Shown in pieces: positions 52,417 through 63,952 of a DNA stretch of 64,000 nt (position 1 is the stretch's first letter; each line of letters begins with the position of its first letter). The DNA is from Actinomycetota bacterium. GTDB taxonomy: Bacteria; Actinomycetota; Thermoleophilia; Solirubrobacterales; 70-9. Made by a program: the position numbers and the translations under genes. Below the pieces are notes generated by a model. The model saw nothing but the letters and a program-made list of their open reading frames with translations. It was not told the DNA's origin and did no database searches. The DNA lies in NCBI GenBank assembly GCA_018268675.1, contig JAFDWB010000084.1, positions 289,981 through 353,980 on the forward strand, given 5' to 3'.

Positions 52417-52827
52417 TCAGCTACGTGAGACGAGCCGGCGATCGGAGCCGGCGATCTGCCAACGAAGGCCGGGGCCGAACTCCAGCGTCAGGTGGTCCGG
52501 AGTGATGAGCTCCCAGTTGGGCGGATCGTCCGGCGCCTCGTCGGGCGCCGGTACCACAACGAGCCGGGTTCCGTCCGAGAGGCGCCAGCGAAGCTCGGTC
52601 GTGATCGGGTCGAGCCTCGCCTCCTCGAGCGTCCGCCCGACGAGACAGGCCGGATCGGCAGGATCGAAGGCGGCGTCCTGGGTGGCGAAGCGCCAGAGGC
52701 CGCCGGCCTCGTCGGTGACTTCGACGTGAAGCACCTCCGGATAAGCGATCCGGGCATCGACGATCCGCCCGCGTAGCGAGCGCAGGATCGTTGCCGGGGA
52801 GGCGGCGAGTGCGTCGCCGGTCACCAT
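52417..52827 (-). CDS. Hypothetical protein next to the integrase, 136 aa
   Basis: Not recognised. A soluble acidic protein with a probable beta-rich middle ('VTDEAGGLWRFATQDAAFDP') and an acidic region ('VPAPDEAPDDPPNWELITPD'). The ATG at 52827 overlaps the 3' end of the integrase by 7 bp, so it was probably co-transcribed with it. Small integrase-linked proteins of this kind are common at island edges; function unknown. Confidence 0.5.
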   Translation of the reverse strand: MVTGDALAASPATILRSLRGRIVDARIAYPEVLHVEVTDEAGGLWRFATQDAAFDPADPACLVGRTLEEARLDPITTELRWRLSDGTRLVVVPAPDEAPDDPPNWELITPDHLTLEFGPGLRWQIAGSDRRLVSRS

Positions 52828-54058
52828 CTCGGCCCCCTGGACCTCAGGCGGCCGCGAGGGCCGGGGCGAGATCGTCCGCACTCGCCTTGACCGACCTTGA
52901 ACGACCTGTCCTTTTCCTCATCCTCCCGGGTAGAGAGGAACTCGTCGAGCTGGTCGCGGGCGCGCTCCAGCTCTCCCGGCAGGACGTGGGTGTAGCGACC
53001 CAGGGTGATAGGTGCCGCGTCGGGAAACTGGTCGCGCCGGGGTGCTTTGTGGCCCATGAAGACCGAGGCTACCTTCGGGGCGATACCGGCATGGTCGAGC
53101 CAGGTCGCGGCCGTATGGCGCGAGTCCTGAAGGCCGATCGGCACCAGATCGAGCGCCTCCCATTCGCGAGCCACCCGCTTGGAGAGCTGGCCCAGTGAGA
53201 GCAGCCCCGACCTCGACCTGTTCCGCCGCGGACAGACCTTGCCGCTCCTTGGCCTGCCCCGTCTCAACCACTCAGCATGGAGCCTCTTGCGCAAGGGTCC
53301 GACCAGTGGCGTGGTCCGGAGCGCCGCCTCCGACTTCCTGGCCTCCTCGTCCACGGCGAGCAAGATCAGACCCTCCTCCAGATCGACCTGTGGCCATTCG
53401 AGGGTCCGGATCTCCTGTGAGCGGGCGGTCCCGTACGCGGCGAGCGCCCAGGCCAGCGCGTCCTCGGTCACCAGCGCCTCGAGCAGACACACGAACTCCC
53501 CCGGTGCCGCGACCCGATCGCGTTCCCGTGAGTCGTTCGCCGGCAGACGGATCCCCGAGGCGGGATTCGTAAGGGCCCTCTCCCGATCGATCGCCCACCG
53601 GTACAGGGAGCGGACCGCATTGATCACGGATCCGATCCGCGAGCTGGAGAGTCCTTCGCGCCGGAACCGGTCCACGACCTCCTGGAGCTCTCCGCTACCG
53701 ACGCGTCGAGAGGCTTGTGGCGCATCTCCTCCGGCAGCCTTCGAAGGGAGGAGTCGAGGTCGACGATCGCGTTCCGCTTGTAGGGCCGACCCAGCTTGTT
53801 GAGGGCGACGCCGGCCTCGCAGTCGGCGATGAACCGACGTTGCTCCGCCGCCAGACCGTGCTCGCCCGACCGCGACCGGATCGTGCCGGCGCGGACCTCC
53901 TCATCGGCCCAACGCTCGAGATCCGAGTTCCGGTAGAGCCTCAGCTGACCCGAGCGCACGCACGGGAGCCGCGGCTGCACATGGCGCTGGAAATGGCTGA
54001 GGCTCATGTTGAGGACGCGGGCCGCCTCTTGACGCGACATCAGCATCCGGTCGTCCAT
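52821..54058 (-). pseudogene. int: Tyrosine integrase with N-terminal HTH, frameshifted
   Basis: The reading frame is broken near 53680. The 5' part (54058 to about 53690) has an excisionase-like HTH ('LMSRQEAARVLNMSLSHFQR') and the start of the core-binding domain ('LNKLGRPYKRNAIVDLDSSL', 'PEEMRHKPLDA'). The 3' part, in the -1 frame (52821-53675), has the rest ('SSSRIGSVINAVRSLYRWAI') and the catalytic domain: first Arg in 'YGTARSQEIRTLEW', 'LQDSRHTAATWLDHAGI', 'VFMGHKAP', and Tyr in 'RYTHVLPGELE'. The box usually reads HxxR but here starts with Gln. Start 54058 has a strong AAGGAGG site. It is inactive unless the frameshift is bypassed. Confidence 0.8.
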
Positions 54059-54341: not shown

Positions 54342-55334
54342 ATGAGCCCGCTGAACAACAACGCGTACGCCGCAGGCGCGCAGCAGTCCCGGATCGACCT
54401 GACCGTCGACGCGGACCAACACGCCGGACTGGTGAGGAGTGTGCGCAACCAGGTTCCCGGCATCAGCCGCGAGGACGCCGAGGACGCGGTGCAGGAAGCC
54501 TGGATCGTCCTCGCCGAGAAGGCGGATCGGCTCGAGCCGGGACCGATCGGCGGCTACCTGCGAGGGACCGCACGCAACAAGGCGATGAAGATCCGCGACA
54601 AGGGACGGAGGACGACGTCGCTGGAGGCTCTCGCGGAGGCCGCCGGGGAAGGGAGCCGCGCGCTGATCGACCCGATGTCGGGATCGCTCCAGTCGCACGC
54701 CGAACTCGACGAGCTGATCGACGACCCGGTCGCCAGGCGTGCGGTCGAGGCGGCGGAGCTGGGCGCCGCGCCGTGCGTGGCGCCACGAGGGATGAACCAT
54801 CGCGCCGCCCGCTACACCGATCGGCAGGTCGAGGAGGTCAGGGCCTTGCGGCGGCAGGGCCACACCTTCCGCGAGATCGAGGCCAGGACCGGGGTGCCGG
54901 CGGGATACGGGCCGACCCTGGCGCGGCGAGAGTGCCGGGTCACGCATTCGAGCGAAGGCTGGACCCGACAGCTCGTTCTGGATTGTCTCCTCCGGTTCCA
55001 GAAGAAGTTCGGCAGGGCTCCGGTCTACCGCGATGCCGAGGGCAACCTGGCAATGCCGTCCCCGAACACGGTCAAGCGACTCTTCGGATCCTGGAGGGAC
55101 GCCGTGAGGGCGGCAGGGCTCGATCCGGCCTATGGAGATCGCCGAGTAACCCCGTGGACCGACGGGGAGATGATCCTCGCCTTCTGCGGATGGCGACTCA
55201 CCCATGGGCGTTGGCCGAACAGGGAAGACATGGTGGCCGATCCCGCTCTCCCGTCCCCGGCCACGACGCGCCGCCGCTTCGGCACGCAGAGCCCGAACCG
55301 CCTGATGCTCAGGGTGCTGGGCAGATTGGGATAG
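54342..55334 (+). CDS. Sigma-region-2-like protein with homing-endonuclease-associated repeats
   Basis: Protein of 330 residues in the island. Residues ~25-90 resemble sigma-70 region 2 ('DAEDAVQEAWIVLAEKADRL', 'IGGYLRGTARNKAMKIRDKG'). Residues ~150-190 are a helix-turn-helix ('YTDRQVEEVRALRRQGHTFR'), and the C-terminal ~130 residues carry two repeats of the HEAR type ('FQKKFGRAPVYRDAEGNLAM', 'LFGSWRDAVRAAGLDPAYGD'). This looks like a regulatory protein of a mobile element rather than a standard ECF factor. A strong AAGGAGG ribosome site precedes ATG 54342. It diverges from the integrase with 283 bp between. Confidence 0.7.
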   Translation: MSPLNNNAYAAGAQQSRIDLTVDADQHAGLVRSVRNQVPGISREDAEDAVQEAWIVLAEKADRLEPGPIGGYLRGTARNKAMKIRDKGRRTTSLEALAEAAGEGSRALIDPMSGSLQSHAELDELIDDPVARRAVEAAELGAAPCVAPRGMNHRAARYTDRQVEEVRALRRQGHTFREIEARTGVPAGYGPTLARRECRVTHSSEGWTRQLVLDCLLRFQKKFGRAPVYRDAEGNLAMPSPNTVKRLFGSWRDAVRAAGLDPAYGDRRVTPWTDGEMILAFCGWRLTHGRWPNREDMVADPALPSPATTRRRFGTQSPNRLMLRVLGRLG

Positions 55335-55463: not shown

Positions 55464-55853
55464 TCACCAAAGGGTCGCGACGCCGTGGGCGGCGACGCCC
55501 GGGTCGCGGCTGACGAGCGGCACCTCCTCGACCGTCGCCTGGGCGACGAGGAGGCGGTCGAAGGGGTCGCGCTGCAGGCTGCCGCCATGCTCGACGTAGG
55601 GAAGGCGCCGATAAGCCGCGGCGTGTGCCGGGGTGATCGGCAACAGGGAGAAGCCCTCCGAGAGAAGCTCCTCGGCCCATCCGTCGGCGACCTCGAGCTT
55701 GCCGAGCGAGGCTTTGATCGCGACCTCGAAGAGGGTCCCGGCACCGAACAACGGCTCCTCGGCCCCGGCGATCGCCTCGCGCGCCGTTCCCGACAGGCGC
55801 GGGTCGTCCGCCAACCACCAGAGGACCGCGTGGGTGTCGGCGAGGAGCCTCAG
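55464..55853 (-). CDS. vapC: PIN-domain toxin (VapC-like)
   Basis: Ribonuclease toxin of about 129 residues. The PIN acidic residues are visible: Asp in 'LLADTHAVLWWL', Glu in 'LFEVAIKASLGKL', Asp in 'RDPFDRLLVAQA' and Asp in 'PLVSRDPGV'. The conserved first strand requires a start upstream of the available TTG at 55814; the only near start is CTG at 55853, which overlaps the antitoxin stop (CTGA). A rare CTG start coupled to the antitoxin is therefore inferred. Toxin and antitoxin are co-translated. Confidence 0.8.
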   Translation of the reverse strand: MRLLADTHAVLWWLADDPRLSGTAREAIAGAEEPLFGAGTLFEVAIKASLGKLEVADGWAEELLSEGFSLLPITPAHAAAYRRLPYVEHGGSLQRDPFDRLLVAQATVEEVPLVSRDPGVAAHGVATLW

Positions 55854-56092
55854 TCGGTCGCCCCGAGCGCCGCGGCGACGTCCTCGGGCCAGGAGTCGAA
55901 GTCCTCGGCGAGGACGACCTTCCCCGCCAGGGCGCCGGGACGGCGACGGGCGCCGCCGGGCCGCGGCAGCGCCACCAGTCTGGCGACGGGCTCCTTACCG
56001 CGGCGCAGCTCGACCGTCTCGCCCTGCTCTGCCAGGGCGATCAGCTTCGAGAGGTTCGTCTTCGCCTCGCCGATGGTGAAGGTGTGGGTCAT
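55850..56092 (-). CDS. Phd/YefM-type antitoxin
   Basis: Antitoxin of 80 residues for the PIN toxin downstream. The N-terminal DNA-binding fold is visible ('MTHTFTIGEAKTNLSKLIAL', 'GETVELRRGKEPVARLVAL'); the C-terminal part is flexible and acidic ('LAEDFDSWPEDVAAALG') and would bind the toxin. The stop overlaps the toxin start. It also represses its own promoter, normal for the family. Confidence 0.82.
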   Translation of the reverse strand: MTHTFTIGEAKTNLSKLIALAEQGETVELRRGKEPVARLVALPRPGGARRRPGALAGKVVLAEDFDSWPEDVAAALGATD

Positions 56093-56368: not shown

Positions 56369-56947
56369 TCAGGCGCCGGCGTAGATCGGACCGGCGCCGG
56401 TGCTCAGAGTGATCGGCTCATCGGGAAGCTTCTCCGAGGTCACCGTGGAGAGCTTCACGCCGAAGAGCAGCATGTCCGCGACACGGCGCCTCAGAAAGTC
56501 GTCCTGATCGAGGCTTCCTCGGATGGCATCGGCGCAAGAGCCGGAGAGCTTGGCGACGTGGAGCGCGTAGTGCCGGAGCTGCTCCGACTTGGTCAGCCCC
56601 ACCACGTCGTAGTGATATGCCTGATCGTGGTGGTCCTGGACGACTTGAAGGGCTCGCCAGTCGCGAAGCCCGCGCGCAGCACTCGAGCCATCGTAGGAAT
56701 CCGCGCAGAAGTGGACGTTGCGTCGCTCGATCACTCCGAGCCGGTCGGCGTAGAGCTCGACCGGATCGACCCGGGCGATGTCGCTAAGCCAGAGCGAGGT
56801 CTCGCGCAGAGTCTGGGCTGCGTCTCTCACCCATCCGATCTCCACGTGCTCGTTGTGCTCTACGTGGTCGCAATAGTTGGCGACCGCGGCGGAGGCGGGA
56901 GCCAGGTGGAGGAGAGCCTCGATCAGGTCTTCGCGTTGGAAGGTCAT
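56369..56947 (-). CDS. Hypothetical all-helical protein, 192 aa
   Basis: Not recognised. Last gene of the long minus-strand operon, 55 bp after the phosphoesterase gene. It appears entirely helical and is rich in His ('VANYCDHVEHNEHVEI', 'VVQDHHDQAYHYDVVG', 'LRHYALHVAKLSGSCADAIR'), with a pattern reminiscent of MazG-like or other helical nucleotide hydrolases but no firm motif. Its position suggests a part in the same system as the TS-like and phosphoesterase proteins. Confidence 0.55.
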   Translation of the reverse strand: MTFQREDLIEALLHLAPASAAVANYCDHVEHNEHVEIGWVRDAAQTLRETSLWLSDIARVDPVELYADRLGVIERRNVHFCADSYDGSSAARGLRDWRALQVVQDHHDQAYHYDVVGLTKSEQLRHYALHVAKLSGSCADAIRGSLDQDDFLRRRVADMLLFGVKLSTVTSEKLPDEPITLSTGAGPIYAGA

Positions 56948-57002
56948 GGGCGGCAGCCAGCAGATTTACACCTGGTACGGACGTTCATCCTCACAGGACG
57001 GC

Positions 57003-59207
57003 TCAGCTGCGGAGCGCCGCCCTCACGGCTTTGCGGAGTGCTTTCTCGCAATCGCCCGCTGCCTCTTTCAACTGGGTCGCCCACCCGTCCAGCGTACTGC
57101 CATTCGGGTTCTTGCCGGCAAGGGCATCCTCGGCCGATCTTGCACGTTGGCGGAGATTTCCGAGCGACTTGGTCAACGCGCGGAACTCGGGGGTGGTCGT
57201 GCTAGCCGGGTGGGTGTCGAGGGCATCACAGAGGCGCTCGATGCCGACGGACGGCACCAGGAGCCCTTTGGGAGGGCGGTCGCCGATGTCTCCGAGCGCA
57301 CGGCCCCACTCGGTGAGAACCTCTGCATCCTCATCCGCTGAATCGGGGACCGCGGCCAAATAGGCAAGTCGATAGATCCACTCCGGCCGAAGGTCGACGG
57401 CGCGGTCGAGCAGGGTACCTGCCATCTGGGGCAGCACATCGTCATGGACCCCCTGCATCGCGATCGCAGATAGCCGCCCGGGCTCCCATTCCGCCTCGAG
57501 ATGCTTCAGGTCGTTTGCGGTCGCGACGGCTTTCGCCTGGATGCGGGCCAACTCCGCCATGTTCACGGGCCACCAGAGATTGAGGTCCTGCTTCCTGTAG
57601 ACGCCGATCACGTCGAGAGCCCGGCGCCCCTTCACCAGCGAGCGGGTCTGCAGCTGGACCTCGAGGAAGGCGGGTGACTCGGCCTCGCTACCTGCCTCCC
57701 CCGATCGGACGAGGAGGGCGAAGGCCTTGCTGGAGGGAAGCGCCGCGACGGCCCTGTCGACCGAGTCCTCGCCGCCGTAAAGGCGTTCTCCGTGGTTGAA
57801 GGTTGAACCCGAGTACGAGGAGACCGCCTCAGGGCGCGGCAGTTGCCACCAGTCGACCAGGTCGCCGAGCCGGGGGATCTTTTTGTCGGGGTAGTTCGTC
57901 GGGTAGTCGGCGGTCGACGCAGGGTCGTTGACCACGCTGACCACAGGCCGACCCCCCGGGTCCGGAAGGGCGAGGTCGCGCACCTGCTCGTAGGCTGCGT
58001 CTGCCGTCTCCGCCTCGATCACCCACGGCGTCATCGGGTTCGCGGACGTGAATGCCGGCTGGGCGAGCGAGTATTTCGGCCAGACGTCGATGTCGAGTGC
58101 CATCGACTCCGCGGCGTCGACGCCTTTTATCGGCACGATGCGGACCCTCGGTGCCCCGGCCACCGGCTCCTCTCCCTCAGGCGAGACCTCGATCAGCCGG
58201 CAGACGATGCCACCGACCCGAAAGCGTCCGGGTGCGCCCAGCACCATCGCCCGCCGCGCTTTGATTTCAAGGTCGTCCCTCGGTGGCGCCAGCCAGTCCC
58301 AGGCCGCATAGGACGTGTGCTTGTGGCCGTGAAGGACGAGGTGGAATCCCAGGCGATAGAGGAAGGTACGAACGATCGCGAGGTTCGTGATCACCTCGAA
58401 GGGCTTGATCTCCTCCTGGTCGGTAGCCGGGGTGATCGGGTGGTGTATGGCGGCTATCCGAAGCCGAGGATCCCGGTCGGCATCGTCTCCGATCTTCGCC
58501 ACGTCGAGCCGCTTCTTCAGAGCATCGATCTGTTTTTTGTCCACTTTCGGAATGTCGTGGGTGCGGAGCTTCTTCAACTCTTCGGCAGCACGCTTCCGTG
58601 TCTCCTCGGCGCCATCCCCGGTGTCGCCCTCCAGGTAGGCAGCCAGCACAGCGTCCCAGTCGGTCTTCGTCTTCTGCTCCTTGGTCCAGCAGTAGTCGGC
58701 GGAGTTGATCGCGACGACCACCGCGTCGCCAAGATCGACGACCGGCTTCGGCCTTCCTCGGGCACCGGGATTTAGATGCAGGTTGTCGCTCTTGTAGTCG
58801 AGCCCCTTGACCAACGGAGTCGAATACCGCGGGCGCGTCGCGTCCATGAAGCGGGCCAGCTTGGCGCGATCGCCCGGCTGGAGGTCGCGGTCGACATCGT
58901 GGTTCCCCGGGATGACGACGACCTTGTCCTCGGCGGGCATCGCATCGCCCAGTAGTTCGAGGAGCGGGGGAAACGCCCGGTAGCCGTCGGTGTGGTTTCC
59001 CTTCGTGATGTCGCCGGTGACCACGATGGCATCGAGTCCGTTGCCGGATTCGACGAGACGCCGACCGAGCGCCTCAAGCGTGTGTTCAAGGTGATCGGTT
59101 TCGGTCTCCCCCTCGTCCGGGTCCATGCCGAACTTATCGTCGTAGTCGCGCTGCCCGGGAGAGGCAGGACCGAGATGGAGGTCGGAGAGGTGGAGGATCA
59201 GGGACAT
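57003..59207 (-). CDS. Calcineurin-like phosphoesterase with TS-like segment
   Basis: Protein of 734 residues. Residues 1-310 are a metallophosphoesterase: 'ILHLSDLHLGPAS' (Asp9, His11), 'IVVTGDITKGN' (Asp66), 'VVIPGNHDVDRDLQ' (Asn102, His103), 'IAAIHHPITPA' and 'LVLHGHKHTSYA'. Residues ~375-590 resemble a thymidylate-synthase fold: 'FLEVQLQTRS', then 'IGVYRKQDLNLWWPVNMAEL', but the catalytic Cys is replaced ('ESPAFLEV'). The last ~130 residues are helical ('LRQRARSAEDALAGKNPNGS'). It starts inside the preceding gene's last codons (10-bp overlap). Similar phosphoesterase-TS combinations occur in putative conflict systems; substrate is not known. Confidence 0.75.
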   Translation of the reverse strand: MSLILHLSDLHLGPASPGQRDYDDKFGMDPDEGETETDHLEHTLEALGRRLVESGNGLDAIVVTGDITKGNHTDGYRAFPPLLELLGDAMPAEDKVVVIPGNHDVDRDLQPGDRAKLARFMDATRPRYSTPLVKGLDYKSDNLHLNPGARGRPKPVVDLGDAVVVAINSADYCWTKEQKTKTDWDAVLAAYLEGDTGDGAEETRKRAAEELKKLRTHDIPKVDKKQIDALKKRLDVAKIGDDADRDPRLRIAAIHHPITPATDQEEIKPFEVITNLAIVRTFLYRLGFHLVLHGHKHTSYAAWDWLAPPRDDLEIKARRAMVLGAPGRFRVGGIVCRLIEVSPEGEEPVAGAPRVRIVPIKGVDAAESMALDIDVWPKYSLAQPAFTSANPMTPWVIEAETADAAYEQVRDLALPDPGGRPVVSVVNDPASTADYPTNYPDKKIPRLGDLVDWWQLPRPEAVSSYSGSTFNHGERLYGGEDSVDRAVAALPSSKAFALLVRSGEAGSEAESPAFLEVQLQTRSLVKGRRALDVIGVYRKQDLNLWWPVNMAELARIQAKAVATANDLKHLEAEWEPGRLSAIAMQGVHDDVLPQMAGTLLDRAVDLRPEWIYRLAYLAAVPDSADEDAEVLTEWGRALGDIGDRPPKGLLVPSVGIERLCDALDTHPASTTTPEFRALTKSLGNLRQRARSAEDALAGKNPNGSTLDGWATQLKEAAGDCEKALRKAVRAALRS

Positions 59208-60193
59208 GCGACGAGAGGTGGTTCTTGGCGCTCGGCTGTCACCGACACATCGAGGCCCCACTTCGGCGGAAACGTGAGCTCGAGTGGGCGGGGGTCGGGG
59301 GTGAATTCCTGCTTGATACGAACTCGGTTGCTCTTCAACTCCGGGAAGGCCTGCCGCGCATACTTGTCGGTCTCACAGAAGAGACCCTGGCAGTCGATCG
59401 CGTGGAGGCGACGACCGAAAAGACCACCGAAGTCGAGCCCGAGGCGGTCGAATTCATCCTCCTGACGGTCGACCATCCGGGCGATCAGATCCTCGGGCGA
59501 TTCGCCCGCTCGGTCGCTGAAGACCTTTTCGATCCCTCGCTGCGCGCCTGGACCGGGGACGGTGAATTCGTCCTCGTCGAAGGCGAGATGCTCGGAATAG
59601 TTCAGGTCTACTGCGATCTGATAGCCGAGGAAGGGACCGATCATCGGGTAGGAGACCAACGCGTCATAGACATCACCGAGAGACCGGGCTCTCGACAACG
59701 ACAAGCCGAGGCCGCCTCTTCGGAACATGTCATGGACGAGCGCGAGGTGGTTGCGGTGCTTCGCCTTGTAACCGAATCCGTTCGGAGCCGCCAGGATGAA
59801 GGCGGCGGTATAGATCGGGCCGTCGCACCGCATCGATTCGAGGACGTCTCCGAGACCGGCGACGTCCAAGGTCGACAGCCGGACTCCCCCCGTGGCCTCC
59901 TCGAGTGCCTCCCAGGTCCTTTCCTTCGAGAACAGGCGGAAGAGGACGATCCGCAGGAAGACGTCCTCTGCCGGCAGTGCTCTCCATCGCTCCCCGTATA
60001 TGACCTCCCGGATCAGGAACTGCGAGACGCGGTCGGCCGCACGGAAGGTGTTGCAGAACTTGAACCTCCGAAGGATCGGATCGTCGGTCCAGGGTCCGGC
60101 CTCACCGCGTACACGGCTCATGAGGATCTCGTTGCGGCGCGCGGCGAAGAGCCAGTAGGCGTCATGAACTTTCGGGCGTACCGATGCTCGCAT
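59198..60193 (-). CDS. Protein resembling 5-hmdU DNA kinase helical domain / aGPT-pyrophosphorylase families
   Basis: Protein of 331 residues. The N-terminal third matches the pattern of the helical domain found in 5-hydroxymethyl-dUMP DNA kinase and thymine hypermodification pyrophosphorylases: 'GPWTDDPILRRFKFCNTFRA' and 'ADRVSQFLIREVIYGERW'. Further on are 'DVFLRIVLFRLFSKERTWEA' and 'SYPMIGPFLGYQIAVDLNYS', then a C-terminal Cys-containing part ('HAIDCQGLFCETDKYARQAF'). Those families act on modified thymine in phage DNA. It is translated just before the phosphoesterase and 63 bp after the TS-like gene. Assignment is by pattern and should be tested by profile search. Confidence 0.5.
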   Translation of the reverse strand: MRASVRPKVHDAYWLFAARRNEILMSRVRGEAGPWTDDPILRRFKFCNTFRAADRVSQFLIREVIYGERWRALPAEDVFLRIVLFRLFSKERTWEALEEATGGVRLSTLDVAGLGDVLESMRCDGPIYTAAFILAAPNGFGYKAKHRNHLALVHDMFRRGGLGLSLSRARSLGDVYDALVSYPMIGPFLGYQIAVDLNYSEHLAFDEDEFTVPGPGAQRGIEKVFSDRAGESPEDLIARMVDRQEDEFDRLGLDFGGLFGRRLHAIDCQGLFCETDKYARQAFPELKSNRVRIKQEFTPDPRPLELTFPPKWGLDVSVTAERQEPPLVACP

Positions 60194-60256
60194 CGCGCCA
60201 GTCTCTCAACTGACCGTGACGTCCCGTCGGCCCGGGAGCTGCGGTCGCGTGGACCG

Positions 60257-61054
60257 TCAGGAGCTCCCGAGGTAGCGAGCCCACAACGGTGCGAGCAGCT
60301 CGCCGGTCAGGCCCTTCTTCGAGTCGAGCTTTGCATGGCCGATCGTGAGTAGGAGCTCACCCACCGGCAGGCCAACTGCCGCCGCGATATAGGCCTGCAA
60401 TTCCGCTAGTCCCAGAAAGTTGCCATAGCCCCTGGCGCACAGATACTCGTAGCGATAGATCGCCTGGAAGTGAAGCTTGCCGCCGTTGAGGTGGACCGAG
60501 AGGTGAGCAAGACATGGAAAGCCCCTGGGGCTGGTGTCACAGCGCTCGTTGTAGACGTTGATCTCGTACCTTGCGCCCTTGGCTCCTCCGGCGGCGGCGA
60601 GCTCCCTGCGGAGCTTCTCCACCGTGTTCGAGAGCTGATCGGCAGGCTTCTCGCCCTCACCGAATCGCGGATATGCGACTACCCGCCCGAAGTAGGTCCC
60701 CCGGCCGTTCTGTCTGACCGCCCGCAGCCCCTCCTTGCCGTAGAGACCGCGGTAGTGATCGGCCAGCTGCCTCGGCTCCGGCATGCGGCGGGCCCACGCG
60801 GCCGGGAAGATCGTGTTGCGGGTCGTCTCGACCACCGGCATCTCGTCCTCTTCCAGACGCCCCTCGTTTTCATGGCCGATCAGCACTTCGGCGGCCGTGC
60901 GGATCTCGGGAACCTCAAGGGTCGGCTCTGCGATCCGGACCAAGAGATGGACGGTCGTCATGCCGTCGATCGCGTAGAGCGCGCCGGTCGCCCCCAGCCA
61001 CCCCTCGCTCAGGTTCGAGGCCTCTACGTAGCGTCCACTGACGAAGCTCGTCAT
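60257..61054 (-). CDS. Thymidylate-synthase-like protein
   Basis: Protein of 265 residues. The C-terminal half fits the thymidylate synthase fold: 'PRGFPCLAHLSVHLNGGK' contains the Pro-Cys catalytic element (Cys181), followed by 'LHFQAIYRYEYLCARGYGNF' with Asn212 in the usual place and 'LQAYIAAAVGLPVGELLLTI'. The N-terminal half is not the normal TS and lacks an obvious folate region. A deoxynucleotide or base methylation or hydroxymethylation reaction is likely; genuine ThyA is longer and more conserved, so this is a specialised member. The ATG overlaps the protease stop (ATGA). Confidence 0.65.
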   Translation of the reverse strand: MTSFVSGRYVEASNLSEGWLGATGALYAIDGMTTVHLLVRIAEPTLEVPEIRTAAEVLIGHENEGRLEEDEMPVVETTRNTIFPAAWARRMPEPRQLADHYRGLYGKEGLRAVRQNGRGTYFGRVVAYPRFGEGEKPADQLSNTVEKLRRELAAAGGAKGARYEINVYNERCDTSPRGFPCLAHLSVHLNGGKLHFQAIYRYEYLCARGYGNFLGLAELQAYIAAAVGLPVGELLLTIGHAKLDSKKGLTGELLAPLWARYLGSS

Positions 61055-61695
61055 ATCGCCCTTCCTCCGATCGAGTGCGCACAGATGCCGTAGGCGCCGA
61101 GATAACGTTCACTGATGAGCCCGTAGCCGCCGTGGCCCCACCGTGGACCCCAGGAGTTCCTGACCTTCAGCGTCTGCTCGGACTCTCCGTCCTCGCTCGC
61201 ACCAACAACGAGGACTGCGTGATTGCCGGGGACCTTCTCGCCGGCGGGGGAATCGATCATCCCGTCGCCACCGAGCCACACGCGCCTCACCACCCCCAAC
61301 GTCAACACGACCGCGCGTTCGCTCACGAGCTCATTTCTGATCACAGGGATCGCCATCTCTTCCAGCCGCCGCCATTCCGGTGGACTGATGCGGTTCTTCG
61401 GGTCAAGTGCGGCCTCGGGTCGGCCCTCATTCCAGCGCGGCGCACCGTAGGGCCAAGCCGCCTCCCCGGCGTGCTCATACTGACGGAGTCCTTCGAGCGC
61501 GTGATGCACGGACGTCTCCTCACCTTCGATCTCTCGGGGCATCACGCGATGAGCCGCCCACATCGCGTCCTCGGGTGAGCGTTCCACGCCGTCGCCGCCC
61601 ATCCAGTCGTGCGCTCCGCTGACGGCGAACGCCACGCAGGTCGGGCGATCTCCCTGGTTCCGGACGGGAAGCTGCCTGGCCTGCAGATCGATCAT
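61051..61695 (-). CDS. Papain-like (C1) cysteine protease, no prodomain
   Basis: Peptidase of 214 residues. The papain catalytic set is complete: Gln14 and Cys20 in 'LPVRNQGDRPTCVAFAVSGA', His159 in 'EKVPGNHAVLVVGASED' and Asn180 in 'LKVRNSWGPRWGHGGYGLI'. There is no signal peptide and no inhibitory propeptide, so the enzyme would be cytosolic and active on synthesis unless restrained. The gene before it encodes an ImmA/IrrE protein with a chagasin-like papain-inhibitor domain, and the two overlap (ATGA). This is the effector candidate of the operon. Confidence 0.88.
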   Translation of the reverse strand: MIDLQARQLPVRNQGDRPTCVAFAVSGAHDWMGGDGVERSPEDAMWAAHRVMPREIEGEETSVHHALEGLRQYEHAGEAAWPYGAPRWNEGRPEAALDPKNRISPPEWRRLEEMAIPVIRNELVSERAVVLTLGVVRRVWLGGDGMIDSPAGEKVPGNHAVLVVGASEDGESEQTLKVRNSWGPRWGHGGYGLISERYLGAYGICAHSIGGRAI

Positions 61696-62738
61696 CGGAG
61701 TCGGCCCTCACCGCCGCGGATCGCGAGGGCCGACTCGGGCACTTGGACGCCGTGCAACGGCGTGTTGACCGAGATCAGCAGCTCATACGTCTCGTCGTCC
61801 CGGGTGTCTTCCCACGGCTGGCCCTTGACGAGGACCAGCGGTTGGATCGCCTTCTCGGCATCCGGGTCGATCTCGAAGACGAAATAGCGATCCGGCCCGG
61901 CTCCCGCTGACTCCGGATCGTGTGGGTGGGCCGCATGGTGAAGGGCGCGGTCGGGCTCCCATCTGTCGTCGTAGGAGTCGGCCAGCATTCGCATTGAGTC
62001 GGGCGTCGTGGAGATCTTCCAGGTGAACCCGGATGACGGAATCTCGGGCAGAGACAGGACGAGCCGATCCCCCGGTCGGGCATCGACCGGCTGCATGTTG
62101 TTTCGTCGGTCAAGCCACCAGACGTCATTACGCAGATCATCGGGTGCCATCTCCCCGGCCAATGCCAGTTTGAGGTTTCGCGGCGGGATCTTGGCCCAGA
62201 CGTCGGCTTCGCCCTGGTCGATCAGCTTCGTCACGGCAAGCTGACGGGCGGTCGCCGTATAGCTCGCGCCGAGCCAGAGTGAGAGGGCATAGATGTCATA
62301 CGCATCTGCAGGACGCTCGATCCCGAGCCGCCTGAGTCCGCTCCTGAGGAGGCGGCGAGGCATGAGGAACCATGCTGCGAAGGCCTCCGCCTCCTTCTCA
62401 TGGTCAGGCCAGCGCTCGCCGGCGGCTCGCTCGAGCCCCTGGTCTGGCGCAAGGTCGATCTCGGCGGCGTGCTCGAAGATGTGATGCCCCAACTCGTGGG
62501 CCGCGGTGTAGCGCTGTCTGGTCCTTGGATGGCCCTCGTGCAACATGATCCCGGCGGACTTCGATCCCGGCAGGTACACACCCGATGCGTCTCCCAATGG
62601 GCCGAAGGCGAGGACCAGGCCCAACTGCTCGACGGCCCCGAAGACATCGACCGGACGGGACAGATCGATCTCAAGGTCGGCGTGGAGTTCCGCGGCCCGC
62701 ACCGCCGCCCTCGTGTTGGCCTCGACCCAGGTTGTCAT
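61692..62738 (-). CDS. ImmA/IrrE-type metalloprotease fused to chagasin-like (I42) inhibitor domain
   Basis: Protein of 348 residues. Residues ~15-190 are an ImmA/IrrE metalloprotease with 'YTAAHELGHHIFEHA' (His81, Glu82, His85) and the third ligand region 'EKEAEAFAAWFLMP'. Residues ~218-326 resemble chagasin, a family of cysteine protease inhibitors: 'LSLPEIPSSGFTWKI' (the LPxxP-[ST]-[ST]-G-[FY]-x-W loop), then 'GAGPDRYFVFEI' and 'LVLVKGQPWEDT' (the RPW loop, Arg to Gln). The neighbouring gene is a papain-like protease, the natural target. It overlaps the XRE gene and the protease gene by 4 bp each. An inhibitor whose removal unleashes the protease is inferred. Confidence 0.85.
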   Translation of the reverse strand: MTTWVEANTRAAVRAAELHADLEIDLSRPVDVFGAVEQLGLVLAFGPLGDASGVYLPGSKSAGIMLHEGHPRTRQRYTAAHELGHHIFEHAAEIDLAPDQGLERAAGERWPDHEKEAEAFAAWFLMPRRLLRSGLRRLGIERPADAYDIYALSLWLGASYTATARQLAVTKLIDQGEADVWAKIPPRNLKLALAGEMAPDDLRNDVWWLDRRNNMQPVDARPGDRLVLSLPEIPSSGFTWKISTTPDSMRMLADSYDDRWEPDRALHHAAHPHDPESAGAGPDRYFVFEIDPDAEKAIQPLVLVKGQPWEDTRDDETYELLISVNTPLHGVQVPESALAIRGGEGRLR

Positions 62739-63121
62739 CCTCGCTGCCCCTTGGAGCCGTCGAAGTTCTGGAGAAACAGCGCGAAGCGCAGAACCTCTCC
62801 TTTGGACTCCTCGTCCATCTCCTTCGCCGCCCGGGTCAATGCGAGTACCGTCGGGTCGTCCGCAGAACCGGCGAGCCCCGGATCGGGGGCCTGCTCGAGG
62901 AAGAATCCGACCGGCATCCGGTAGATCTCGGCCAGCCTCTTCAGCTCGAGGCTCTCGACGCGGCGGGTTCCGCGCTCGATGTCGGAGATCGCCGAACGCG
63001 GGATCCCGGTCTGCTCGGCGACGAACTGCTGGGACAGATTCACGAATTCACGAGCCTCCTTCAGGCGCCTCGCCAACTCCCGGGCGTCGTCGGAATCAAG
63101 TGTTTTCGAGACGTCGTTCAT
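62735..63121 (-). CDS. XRE-family repressor
   Basis: Helix-turn-helix protein of 128 residues. The Cro/CI-type HTH is at about residues 15-70 ('AREFVNLSQQFVAEQTGIPR', 'ISDIERGTRRVESLELKRLA'). The C-terminal part is charged and helical. XRE plus ImmA/IrrE is the pair used in ICEBs1-type switches, where the protease cleaves the repressor. ATGA overlaps on both sides. It probably binds the inverted repeats at 63412-63473 and so represses the operon and the divergent acpS gene. Confidence 0.85.
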   Translation of the reverse strand: MNDVSKTLDSDDARELARRLKEAREFVNLSQQFVAEQTGIPRSAISDIERGTRRVESLELKRLAEIYRMPVGFFLEQAPDPGLAGSADDPTVLALTRAAKEMDEESKGEVLRFALFLQNFDGSKGQRG

Positions 63122-63399
63122 GAACTCTCCTTCGCCGCGAACTCCGCGAACGCCCGGACCGAGCGCAGCGTGTTCTTCTTCAGCTTCTTCACCGGGATCT
63201 TCAGTCCGGTCCGCTTTCGGAACTCGGCCAACATGTCGAACATCTCGAGAGAGTCGATCGGCATCCCGGCGCCTTTCTGGCGAAGCCGGCCGCCCAGTTC
63301 CTCCTGCGACTCCCCCATCTGCTGGGCGAGTAACTTGAGCACGAGAACCTCGATCGCAGACTCCGTCCATGTATTCGTCGGCGCATCAACCGGGCTCAT
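63118..63399 (-). CDS. Acyl-carrier-protein-like protein
   Basis: Small acidic protein of 93 residues and first gene of the operon. The carrier motif is 'GAGMPIDSLEMFDMLAEF', with Ser50 as the likely phosphopantetheine site, followed by the helix-3 and -4 region ('TGLKIPVKKLKKNTLRSVRA'). It may carry an acyl or aminoacyl group for a system enzyme. A holo-ACP synthase gene lies just across the shared promoter region, which strongly supports a functional carrier. ATGA overlap with the XRE gene. Confidence 0.75.
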   Translation of the reverse strand: MSPVDAPTNTWTESAIEVLVLKLLAQQMGESQEELGGRLRQKGAGMPIDSLEMFDMLAEFRKRTGLKIPVKKLKKNTLRSVRAFAEFAAKESS

Positions 63400-63411
63400 C
63401 GGAATCCCTCC

Positions 63412-63473
63412 TTGTCGGAATTATCGACAGGATAGCATGATTTTCCGACAGTTTTGCGCTAAGCTGTCGGAAA
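63412..63473. promoter_or_regulatory. Operator region with repeated TGTCGGAA half-sites
   Basis: Two inverted repeats share the half-site TGTCGGAA: TGTCG (63413-63417) with CGACA (63425-63429), and TTTCCGACAG (63442-63451) with CTGTCGGAAA (63464-63473), the last reaching the acpS ATG. The region separates the ACP operon and the divergent acpS gene; the XRE protein is the likely binder of both. Confidence 0.6.
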
Positions 63474-63952
63474 TGCCGTCAGACCCAGGGATAAACGCCC
63501 CGTTGATCGGTTTCGACCTAGTCGAGACCTCTCGGATCGCCTCGAAGCTCGGTAAACCTGTCCGGGACGATCTCTTCCTTCCGGGCGAACTTTCCTATGC
63601 TGAGACTCAACCTGACCCCGCCCAGACTCTCGCTGCCAGGTACGCGGCGAAGGAGGCGGTCGTGAAGGCGCTGGGGATGGACGGCTGGGAGCCGCTGGAG
63701 GTCGAGATCGTTGGCGGAGGCGAGCGAACCAGCGTCCGACTACACGGAGACGTACGGAGACGAGCCGAGGAGCTCGGGGTCGAGGTGACGATCTCGATGT
63801 CCCACCTCGATTCCATCTGTGGCGCGGCCGCCCTTGGGCGTCCGCGCCGGTCCTCGGAAGTCGACCAAGGCTCGTCTCTAGGTGTAAGACCCGACCACGT
63901 TGTTCCGCTTCAGCTCGCCGAGGCGGGCTCCGGGCGACCTGTGGCTGAGTGA
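63473..63952 (+). CDS. Holo-ACP synthase (AcpS-like), 3' end altered by IS
   Basis: 4'-phosphopantetheinyl transferase of 159 residues as read. 'LIGFDLVETSRIASK' (Asp15), 'LAARYAAKEAVVKALG' (Glu61) and 'SMSHLDSICGAAALG' (His111) are the AcpS motifs. Homology stops near residue 121; the remaining tail overlaps the transposase end and is probably foreign sequence read through after an insertion. It is divergent from the ACP-like gene and shares its operator. This would activate the operon's carrier protein rather than the fatty-acid ACP (inference). Confidence 0.8.
   Translation: MPSDPGINAPLIGFDLVETSRIASKLGKPVRDDLFLPGELSYAETQPDPAQTLAARYAAKEAVVKALGMDGWEPLEVEIVGGGERTSVRLHGDVRRRAEELGVEVTISMSHLDSICGAAALGRPRRSSEVDQGSSLGVRPDHVVPLQLAEAGSGRPVAE

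Follow-up and report, generated by a model that had tools for sequence, protein, structure and literature searches.

A Recurrent, Partly Plasmid-Borne Operon with an Acyl Carrier Protein, an XRE–ImmA Switch, and Thymidylate-Synthase-Fold and HMUDK_hel Proteins: a Candidate Inducible Immune System

Introduction

Anti-phage systems of Escherichia coli featuring thymidylate synthase (TS), 5-hydroxymethyldeoxyuridine (5-hmdU) kinase, and metallophosphatase domains were validated in the DefensePredictor study, the available excerpts of which also give aGPT-PPlase, MazG, MazG-C, and dUTPase among predicted systems and UDG among the figure abbreviations (PMC13092281). The peptidase CapP, which is activated by single-stranded DNA (ssDNA) and cleaves CapH, controls immune operons (PMC13373217, in excerpt). 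Here we describe an operon at positions 56369–63952 of a 64,000-nucleotide stretch (the window; contig JAFDWB010000084.1 of the Actinomycetota assembly GCA_018268675.1) that combines genes of the TS and 5-hmdU-kinase types with an acyl carrier protein (ACP) gene and a regulatory pair resembling CapH–CapP.

The operon is a copy of a cassette that recurs in other genomes. The core of this cassette is the series ACP–XRE–ImmA–TS–HMUDK_hel, usually with MazG, and its recurring gene order, seen in tens of loci, exceeds chance. The cassette is patchily spread, partly plasmid-borne, and mobile. The best explanation, to which we give an even chance, is a recurrent, mobile, and inducible immune operon whose product would be a hypermodified pyrimidine, likely used to mark or damage the DNA of invaders.

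The Window Operon

The original prediction, made from the sequence of the window, was of a nine-gene island consisting of eight minus-strand genes and a divergent acpS, and open reading frame (ORF) and domain searches bear this out. Eight of its nine domain labels also hold. The remaining label, "calcineurin-TS", stands in its first half, as the calcineurin domain was found, and falls in its second, for which profile searches gave no TS match. The features are as follows.

63473–63952, plus strand: divergent AcpS-type phosphopantetheinyl transferase (ACPS, 6.7e-9; GFDLV and AAKEAVVKAL stretches)
63442–63473, strandless: 10-base inverted repeat TTTCCGACAG-N12-CTGTCGGAAA between acpS and the ACP gene, a candidate XRE operator
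63118–63399, minus strand: ACP-like gene (PP-binding, 3.2e-4, 21.3 bits against a cut-off of 20.8; phosphopantetheine Ser)
62735–63121, minus strand: XRE repressor (HTH_3, 2.6e-11; capH, 1.9e-8)
61692–62738, minus strand: ImmA/IrrE metallopeptidase with C-terminal chagasin (I42) domain (Peptidase_M78, 6.1e-13; Inhibitor_I42, 3.9e-7; capP, 1.3e-18)
61051–61695, minus strand: papain-like C1 protease of 214 residues (Peptidase_C1, 1.1e-7; Cys, His, and Asn intact)
60257–61054, minus strand: TS1, a TS-fold and probably pyrimidine-modifying enzyme
59198–60193, minus strand: HMUDK_hel (5-hmdU-kinase helical domain) protein without kinase domain (3.5e-89)
57003–59207, minus strand: metallophosphoesterase, probably inserted cargo (Metallophos, 3.5e-13; DS9_1, partial, 4e-22)
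56369–56947, minus strand: helical accessory protein (matches adjoining the cassette in loci L067, L064, and L063)

The starts of the XRE, phosphoesterase, and AcpS genes were chosen by us inside longer ORFs. Overlaps of 4 bases occur at four junctions (ACP/XRE, XRE/ImmA, ImmA/C1, and C1/TS). The HMUDK_hel and phosphoesterase genes overlap by 10 bases with the chosen phosphoesterase start, and gaps of 63 and 55 bases separate TS1 from HMUDK_hel and the phosphoesterase from the helical protein, respectively.

Recurrence in Genomes and on Plasmids

A search for homologues of the TS-like protein scored 7,999 candidates, of which 310 matched at E 0.001 (120 of the 310 listed), and 22 homologues were aligned with the window protein. 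GTDB species genomes were then scanned with two peptide patterns, which matched 63 stretches, and 50 loci were confirmed. Genes were counted by matching gene profiles to six-frame translations within 8 kb of TS1; these 50 loci also served to build the profiles, and the counts are conditional on TS1. ImmA and HMUDK_hel each lie near TS1 in 48 of the 50 loci and XRE in 47, and the numbers are closely similar when tblastn is run with nothing but the window proteins (HMUDK_hel 48, ImmA 47, XRE 45). ACP is present in 42 loci, to which four with an ACP-like gene (N92) are added where the ACP profile is silent, a reading of ours from the conserved Ser. The phosphopantetheine Ser is kept in 48 of 48 aligned rows. 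MazG is found in 37 loci, one of which (L008) has MazG and MazG_C by Pfam. Less frequent neighbors are a 95-residue protein (21 loci), a second TS gene (10), AcpS and the C1 protease (8 each), dCTP-deaminase-like genes (6), and a TylF-type methyltransferase (3).

XRE lies upstream of ImmA on one strand in all 47 loci with the pair, and ImmA has TS1 downstream of it in 43 of the 47; the other four are Nocardia/Gordonia copies in which TS1 is upstream. TS1 and HMUDK_hel are jointly present in 48 of 50 loci; HMUDK_hel was not detected near TS1 in L023, and TS1 is close to a contig end in L016 and L053. At L039 (10001–10672), a solitary TS1 relative has no detected partner genes at its locus.

A test starting from HMUDK_hel found PF18723 in 5 of 296 genomes of the phylum, that of the window included, and in 0 of 14 control genomes. 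Four of the five, again including the window's own, hold XRE, ImmA, TS1, and ACP. In the fifth (L070), HMUDK_hel and MazG lie about 4 kb apart, and TS1, XRE, and ImmA were undetected in 17.5 kb. A search of the window's own genome for MazG_C gave no match, and the controls in that search gave none either.

TS1 occurs in 2 of 61 genomes of a relatives search (own included), the second being a weak 74-residue match, and on 21 of 72,556 plasmids, 13 of which are conjugative. In all nine plasmid loci opened among these 21, XRE, ImmA, and TS1 stand behind a small gene at the ACP position, which the ACP profile detects in five. The copy on an archaeal plasmid (Haloarcula marina) has a dTMP kinase, HMUDK_hel, a phosphopantetheinyl transferase, and the protease. 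Two of the nine opened plasmid loci have defense neighbors, Shedu (L060) and an ABC-three component system (ABC-3C; L067), and other plasmid neighbors are AbiEii genes (L066), a restriction endonuclease (L063), and a caspase-family gene (L064), all counted with no background control. A two-pattern scan of viral contigs for TS1 relatives matched 38 stretches, none of which was confirmed.

Many of the loci found are from Streptomyces, and several recurrent clusters of neighboring genes surround the loci, mostly in this genus. In the closest relatives of the window copy (L004–L006), HMUDK_hel has as neighbors a TylF-type methyltransferase and an uncharacterized protein about 213 residues long, and the gene after HMUDK_hel in L044 (11744–12769) appears radical-SAM-like from a Cys motif read by eye. 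An Nmad1-like identity considered for neighbors in L005 and L051 was rejected, as Pfam gave no match.

The XRE–ImmA Switch and Its Candidate Operator

The XRE/ImmA pair, recognized as a switch in the original prediction, resembles CapH/CapP of immune operons. In the window, a helix-turn-helix (HTH) gene adjoins an ImmA-like HExxH peptidase gene at the head of the operon, as in CapH–CapP. The best PADLOC match of the window ImmA protein is capP, and XRE matches capH, with general HTH models matching XRE better. The HExxH motif is kept in 48 of 49 ImmA proteins. Extension of the CapP-type mechanism to the window ImmA would rest on this analogy.

The inverted repeat between acpS and the ACP gene provided the half-site motif TGTCGGA/TCCGACA, which is found at 19 sites across the 9,680 bases preceding ACP (44 loci, window included) versus 95 sites in 777,488 bases elsewhere, a 16-fold enrichment. 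With the window, from which the motif was derived, left out, 16 sites in 13 of 43 loci give an enrichment of about 14-fold. The half-site is absent upstream of ACP in 30 of the 44 loci.

The Nucleotide Enzymes

The TS-like label given to TS1 in the original prediction is weak by sequence and clear by predicted fold. TS1 matches PF00303 at E 0.031 (13.9 against a cut-off of 24.3 bits) and TIGR03283 at 9e-10 (38.4 against 174.55 bits), and thus fails the curated cut-offs for ThyA proper. Its predicted structure is a clear TS fold, placing it in the TS superfamily by fold, and its closest solved folds among the best 1000 chains from Foldseek are AfhB and MilA, which are (d)CMP hydroxylases/hydroxymethylases. 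The catalytic Cys (C181, aligned to Cys146 of ThyA) is kept in 45 of 45 proteins. At the positions of ThyA Asn177, Asp169, His207, and Tyr209, which we take to be substrate residues, two profile alignments disagree.

The predicted fold of the HMUDK_hel protein resembles the phage 5-PmdU glycinyltransferase (PUGT) and DNA glycosylases. A profile search of the window protein gave no match to a P-loop kinase domain; such a domain is fused to HMUDK_hel in 6 of 48 relatives (in L041, Thymidylate_kin, 5e-17). In the alphaproteobacterial plasmid loci L059, L060, L064, L065, and L066, a gene of the uracil-DNA glycosylase (UDG) family adjoins TS1, and HMUDK_hel was not found there.

The dCTP-deaminase-like genes, present in 6 of 50 genome loci and 5 of the 9 opened plasmid loci, encode proteins beside the cassette in L048 (3909–4550), L041, L051, L052, L059, L060, L064, L065, and L067. 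Nine such proteins were aligned, and all have a C-terminal hydrophobic stretch (19-residue mean 1.64–2.89) and no Glu at the position presumed to be catalytic.

The Protease and the Chagasin Domain

Control of papain-like proteases by chagasin is best known from eukaryotic parasites. A conserved co-occurrence of the protease, the ImmA–chagasin fusion, and the TS-like gene was one condition on which the original prediction depended; the three are found together in 8 of 50 genome loci, 6 of the 9 opened plasmid loci, and L071. Its pairing of chagasin with the protease is also borne out, as Pfam places I42 in the ImmA protein of 15 of 15 protease loci tested (the window and 14 others) and in none of five tested loci without protease. 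Nine of the 15 scores are above the curated cut-off of 27.2 bits, including that of the window (30.7 bits), and six are below it (16.7–26.2 bits), so that 6 of the 14 relatives fall under the cut-off; in the protease-bearing locus L071, chagasin was judged by loop motif only. The catalytic Cys, His, and Asn of the protease are kept in 16 of 16 family rows, and Gln in 15. In the TS1 tree of 62 loci, the protease distribution requires at least two changes, and the pairing therefore represents few events, not 16. The simplest reading of these sequences is that the fused chagasin domain likely holds the papain-like protease.

Because the protease was not found in 42 of the 50 loci, 39 of which retain XRE and ImmA, it counts as an accessory carried by some members and not as core. 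Two candidate rules about the protease were discarded. The loop pattern [TS]Gx(x)W gave 9 of 9 versus 0 of 40 at first and then failed in five of six protease-bearing plasmids, which are still I42-positive by Pfam (two of the five below the cut-off). A linkage of AcpS with the protease held without exception among the initial 50 loci (eight loci with both) and was dropped because plasmid loci break it, with protease and no detected AcpS in L059, L065, and L066, and AcpS without protease in L067.

Accessory Genes and Genomic Surroundings

The phosphoesterase had been counted as part of the set, and it is not conserved with the cassette. Its best match in the collected loci has an E value of 0.16, with none at 1e-4; at E 1e-20 it was found in its own genome only, of 61 genomes, and it has 106 database relatives besides itself. 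It was probably picked up by the window copy as inserted cargo. The match to DS9_1 reaches 78.7 bits against a cut-off of 420, which leaves the protein outside DS-9. The helical protein has no family above cut-off in the domain profile search. It is probably a true accessory, because matches lie next to the cassette in L067 (2e-8), L064 (9e-7), and, weakly, L063 (1e-3).

A Phd/YefM antitoxin and PIN toxin pair (55464–56092) lies directly downstream of the operon, and a phage-type integrase with an HTH_17 (excisionase-like) gene (52821–54058) lies 2–3 kb from it as a possible island boundary. Because of these genes just beyond it, the operon is probably on an integrative island. The GC content of the operon is 0.64–0.66 versus about 0.72 preceding it, and comparable dips occur at other sites of the window, such as near 1–3 kb and 20–22 kb. 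The end of the window appears to coincide with the contig end. An odd protein encoded at 54342–55334 joins a sigma-70 region 2 domain to a homing-endonuclease-associated repeat.

Proposed Function and Alternative Explanations

In the immune operon that we favor, DNA damage would lead ImmA, working like CapP and activated by ssDNA, to cleave the XRE repressor, which would otherwise repress from the TGTCGGA repeats. AcpS would load ACP with phosphopantetheine, and TS1 would modify a pyrimidine nucleotide at C5 with a one-carbon (hydroxymethyl-like) group. The 5-substituted base would in turn be acted on by HMUDK_hel, which might join it to a group carried by ACP, and MazG would trim competing nucleotides. 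In protease-bearing copies such as that of the window, the chagasin domain fused to ImmA likely keeps the papain-like protease inactive, and triggering of ImmA would free the protease. A more specific version, which we put forward only tentatively, is a new immune chemistry in which a group supplied or held by the phosphopantetheine arm of ACP is attached to a pyrimidine by the TS-fold enzyme together with a transferase of glycosylase fold, producing a hypermodified poison or alarm nucleotide, with a papain-like protease gated by the chagasin domain of the damage-sensing ImmA.

The same genes might serve a different kind of immunity. Free nucleotides are the substrates of TS folds and of MazG, and TS1, HMUDK_hel, and MazG could together make a modified free pyrimidine nucleotide that activates effectors, namely, the protease or phosphoesterase in the window and a membrane-anchored dCTP-deaminase-like sensor elsewhere. 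The dCTP-deaminase-like genes beside 6 of 50 genome loci and 5 of 9 plasmid loci, with their hydrophobic C-termini and missing presumed catalytic Glu, speak for such second-messenger signaling; however, the window has no such sensor, and known members of the HMUDK_hel and UDG families act on DNA (fold matches; excerpts of PMC6449724). We regard this explanation as possible and rather doubtful. It is unlikely that the cassette instead protects mobile DNA, with plasmids and islands hypermodifying their own DNA upon single-stranded, ImmA-triggering entry and so escaping restriction as hypermodified phages do. Hypermodified phage DNA does resist restriction enzymes (PMC6449724, in excerpt), relatives of HMUDK_hel occur in 394 of 50,697 phage records, and 13 of the 21 TS1 plasmids are conjugative, but self-protection has no need for a protease, chagasin, or membrane proteins.

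A small biosynthetic cluster, producing a nucleoside natural product by way of ACP and a MilA-like hydroxymethylase, would account for ACP, AcpS, a TS fold near MilA, TylF in 3 of 50 loci, and the many Streptomyces copies. Against it stand the spread of one cassette across many phyla and onto an archaeal plasmid, its ImmA switch, and the defense neighbors of some copies; we consider it quite improbable. The model of the original prediction, which makes the protease the central effector and gives the nucleotide enzymes no role beyond supplying its signal, fits the occurrence of chagasin only alongside the protease and the catalytic triad intact in 16 of 16 rows. With 42 of 50 loci lacking the protease and 39 of those keeping XRE and ImmA, we give it hardly any credence.

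If the favored immune function is true, a widespread mobile system brings together carrier-protein chemistry and the modification of nucleobases in immunity, and papain–chagasin control is part of a prokaryotic damage switch. The TS and 5-hmdU-kinase domains validated in E. coli have a role that is unexplained in the excerpted text (PMC13092281), and the natural variants of the cassette, with or without the protease, a kinase fusion, a uracil-DNA glycosylase, or a membrane sensor, offer material for decoding these domains in anti-phage defense.

Comparison with Known Systems

The claim of the original prediction that no described system has this set was too strong, since TS, 5-hmdU-kinase, and metallophosphatase domains have been validated in E. 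coli anti-phage systems, and defense of the nucleotide-modification kind is therefore already known (PMC13092281, in excerpt). Those systems and the window both feature TS-type and 5-hmdU-kinase-type domains, the excerpts leaving unstated whether these are co-located within one E. coli system. The excerpts, compared by text and not by gene order, name no acyl carrier, ImmA, AcpS, chagasin, or papain-like protease, and no description of the version with ACP, ImmA–chagasin, and papain-like protease was found in the open-licence papers searched. The window phosphoesterase matches part of the DS-9 metallophosphatase, and no HAD partner gene, as in DS-9, was seen beside it.

Closest solved folds notwithstanding, TS1 is only 14–15% identical to the pyrimidine C5 enzymes MilA and AfhB. 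Phage thymidine hypermodification pathways, with 5-hmdU, 5-HMUDK, and transferases, share with the window the HMUDK_hel family, a TS-fold enzyme, and the fold match to 5-PmdU glycinyltransferase; unlike them, the cassette is bacterial and plasmid-borne and has a switch. CapH–CapP likewise places an HTH gene and an ImmA-like HExxH peptidase gene ahead of an operon, whereas the window peptidase carries chagasin at its C-terminus and the pair comes after an ACP gene.

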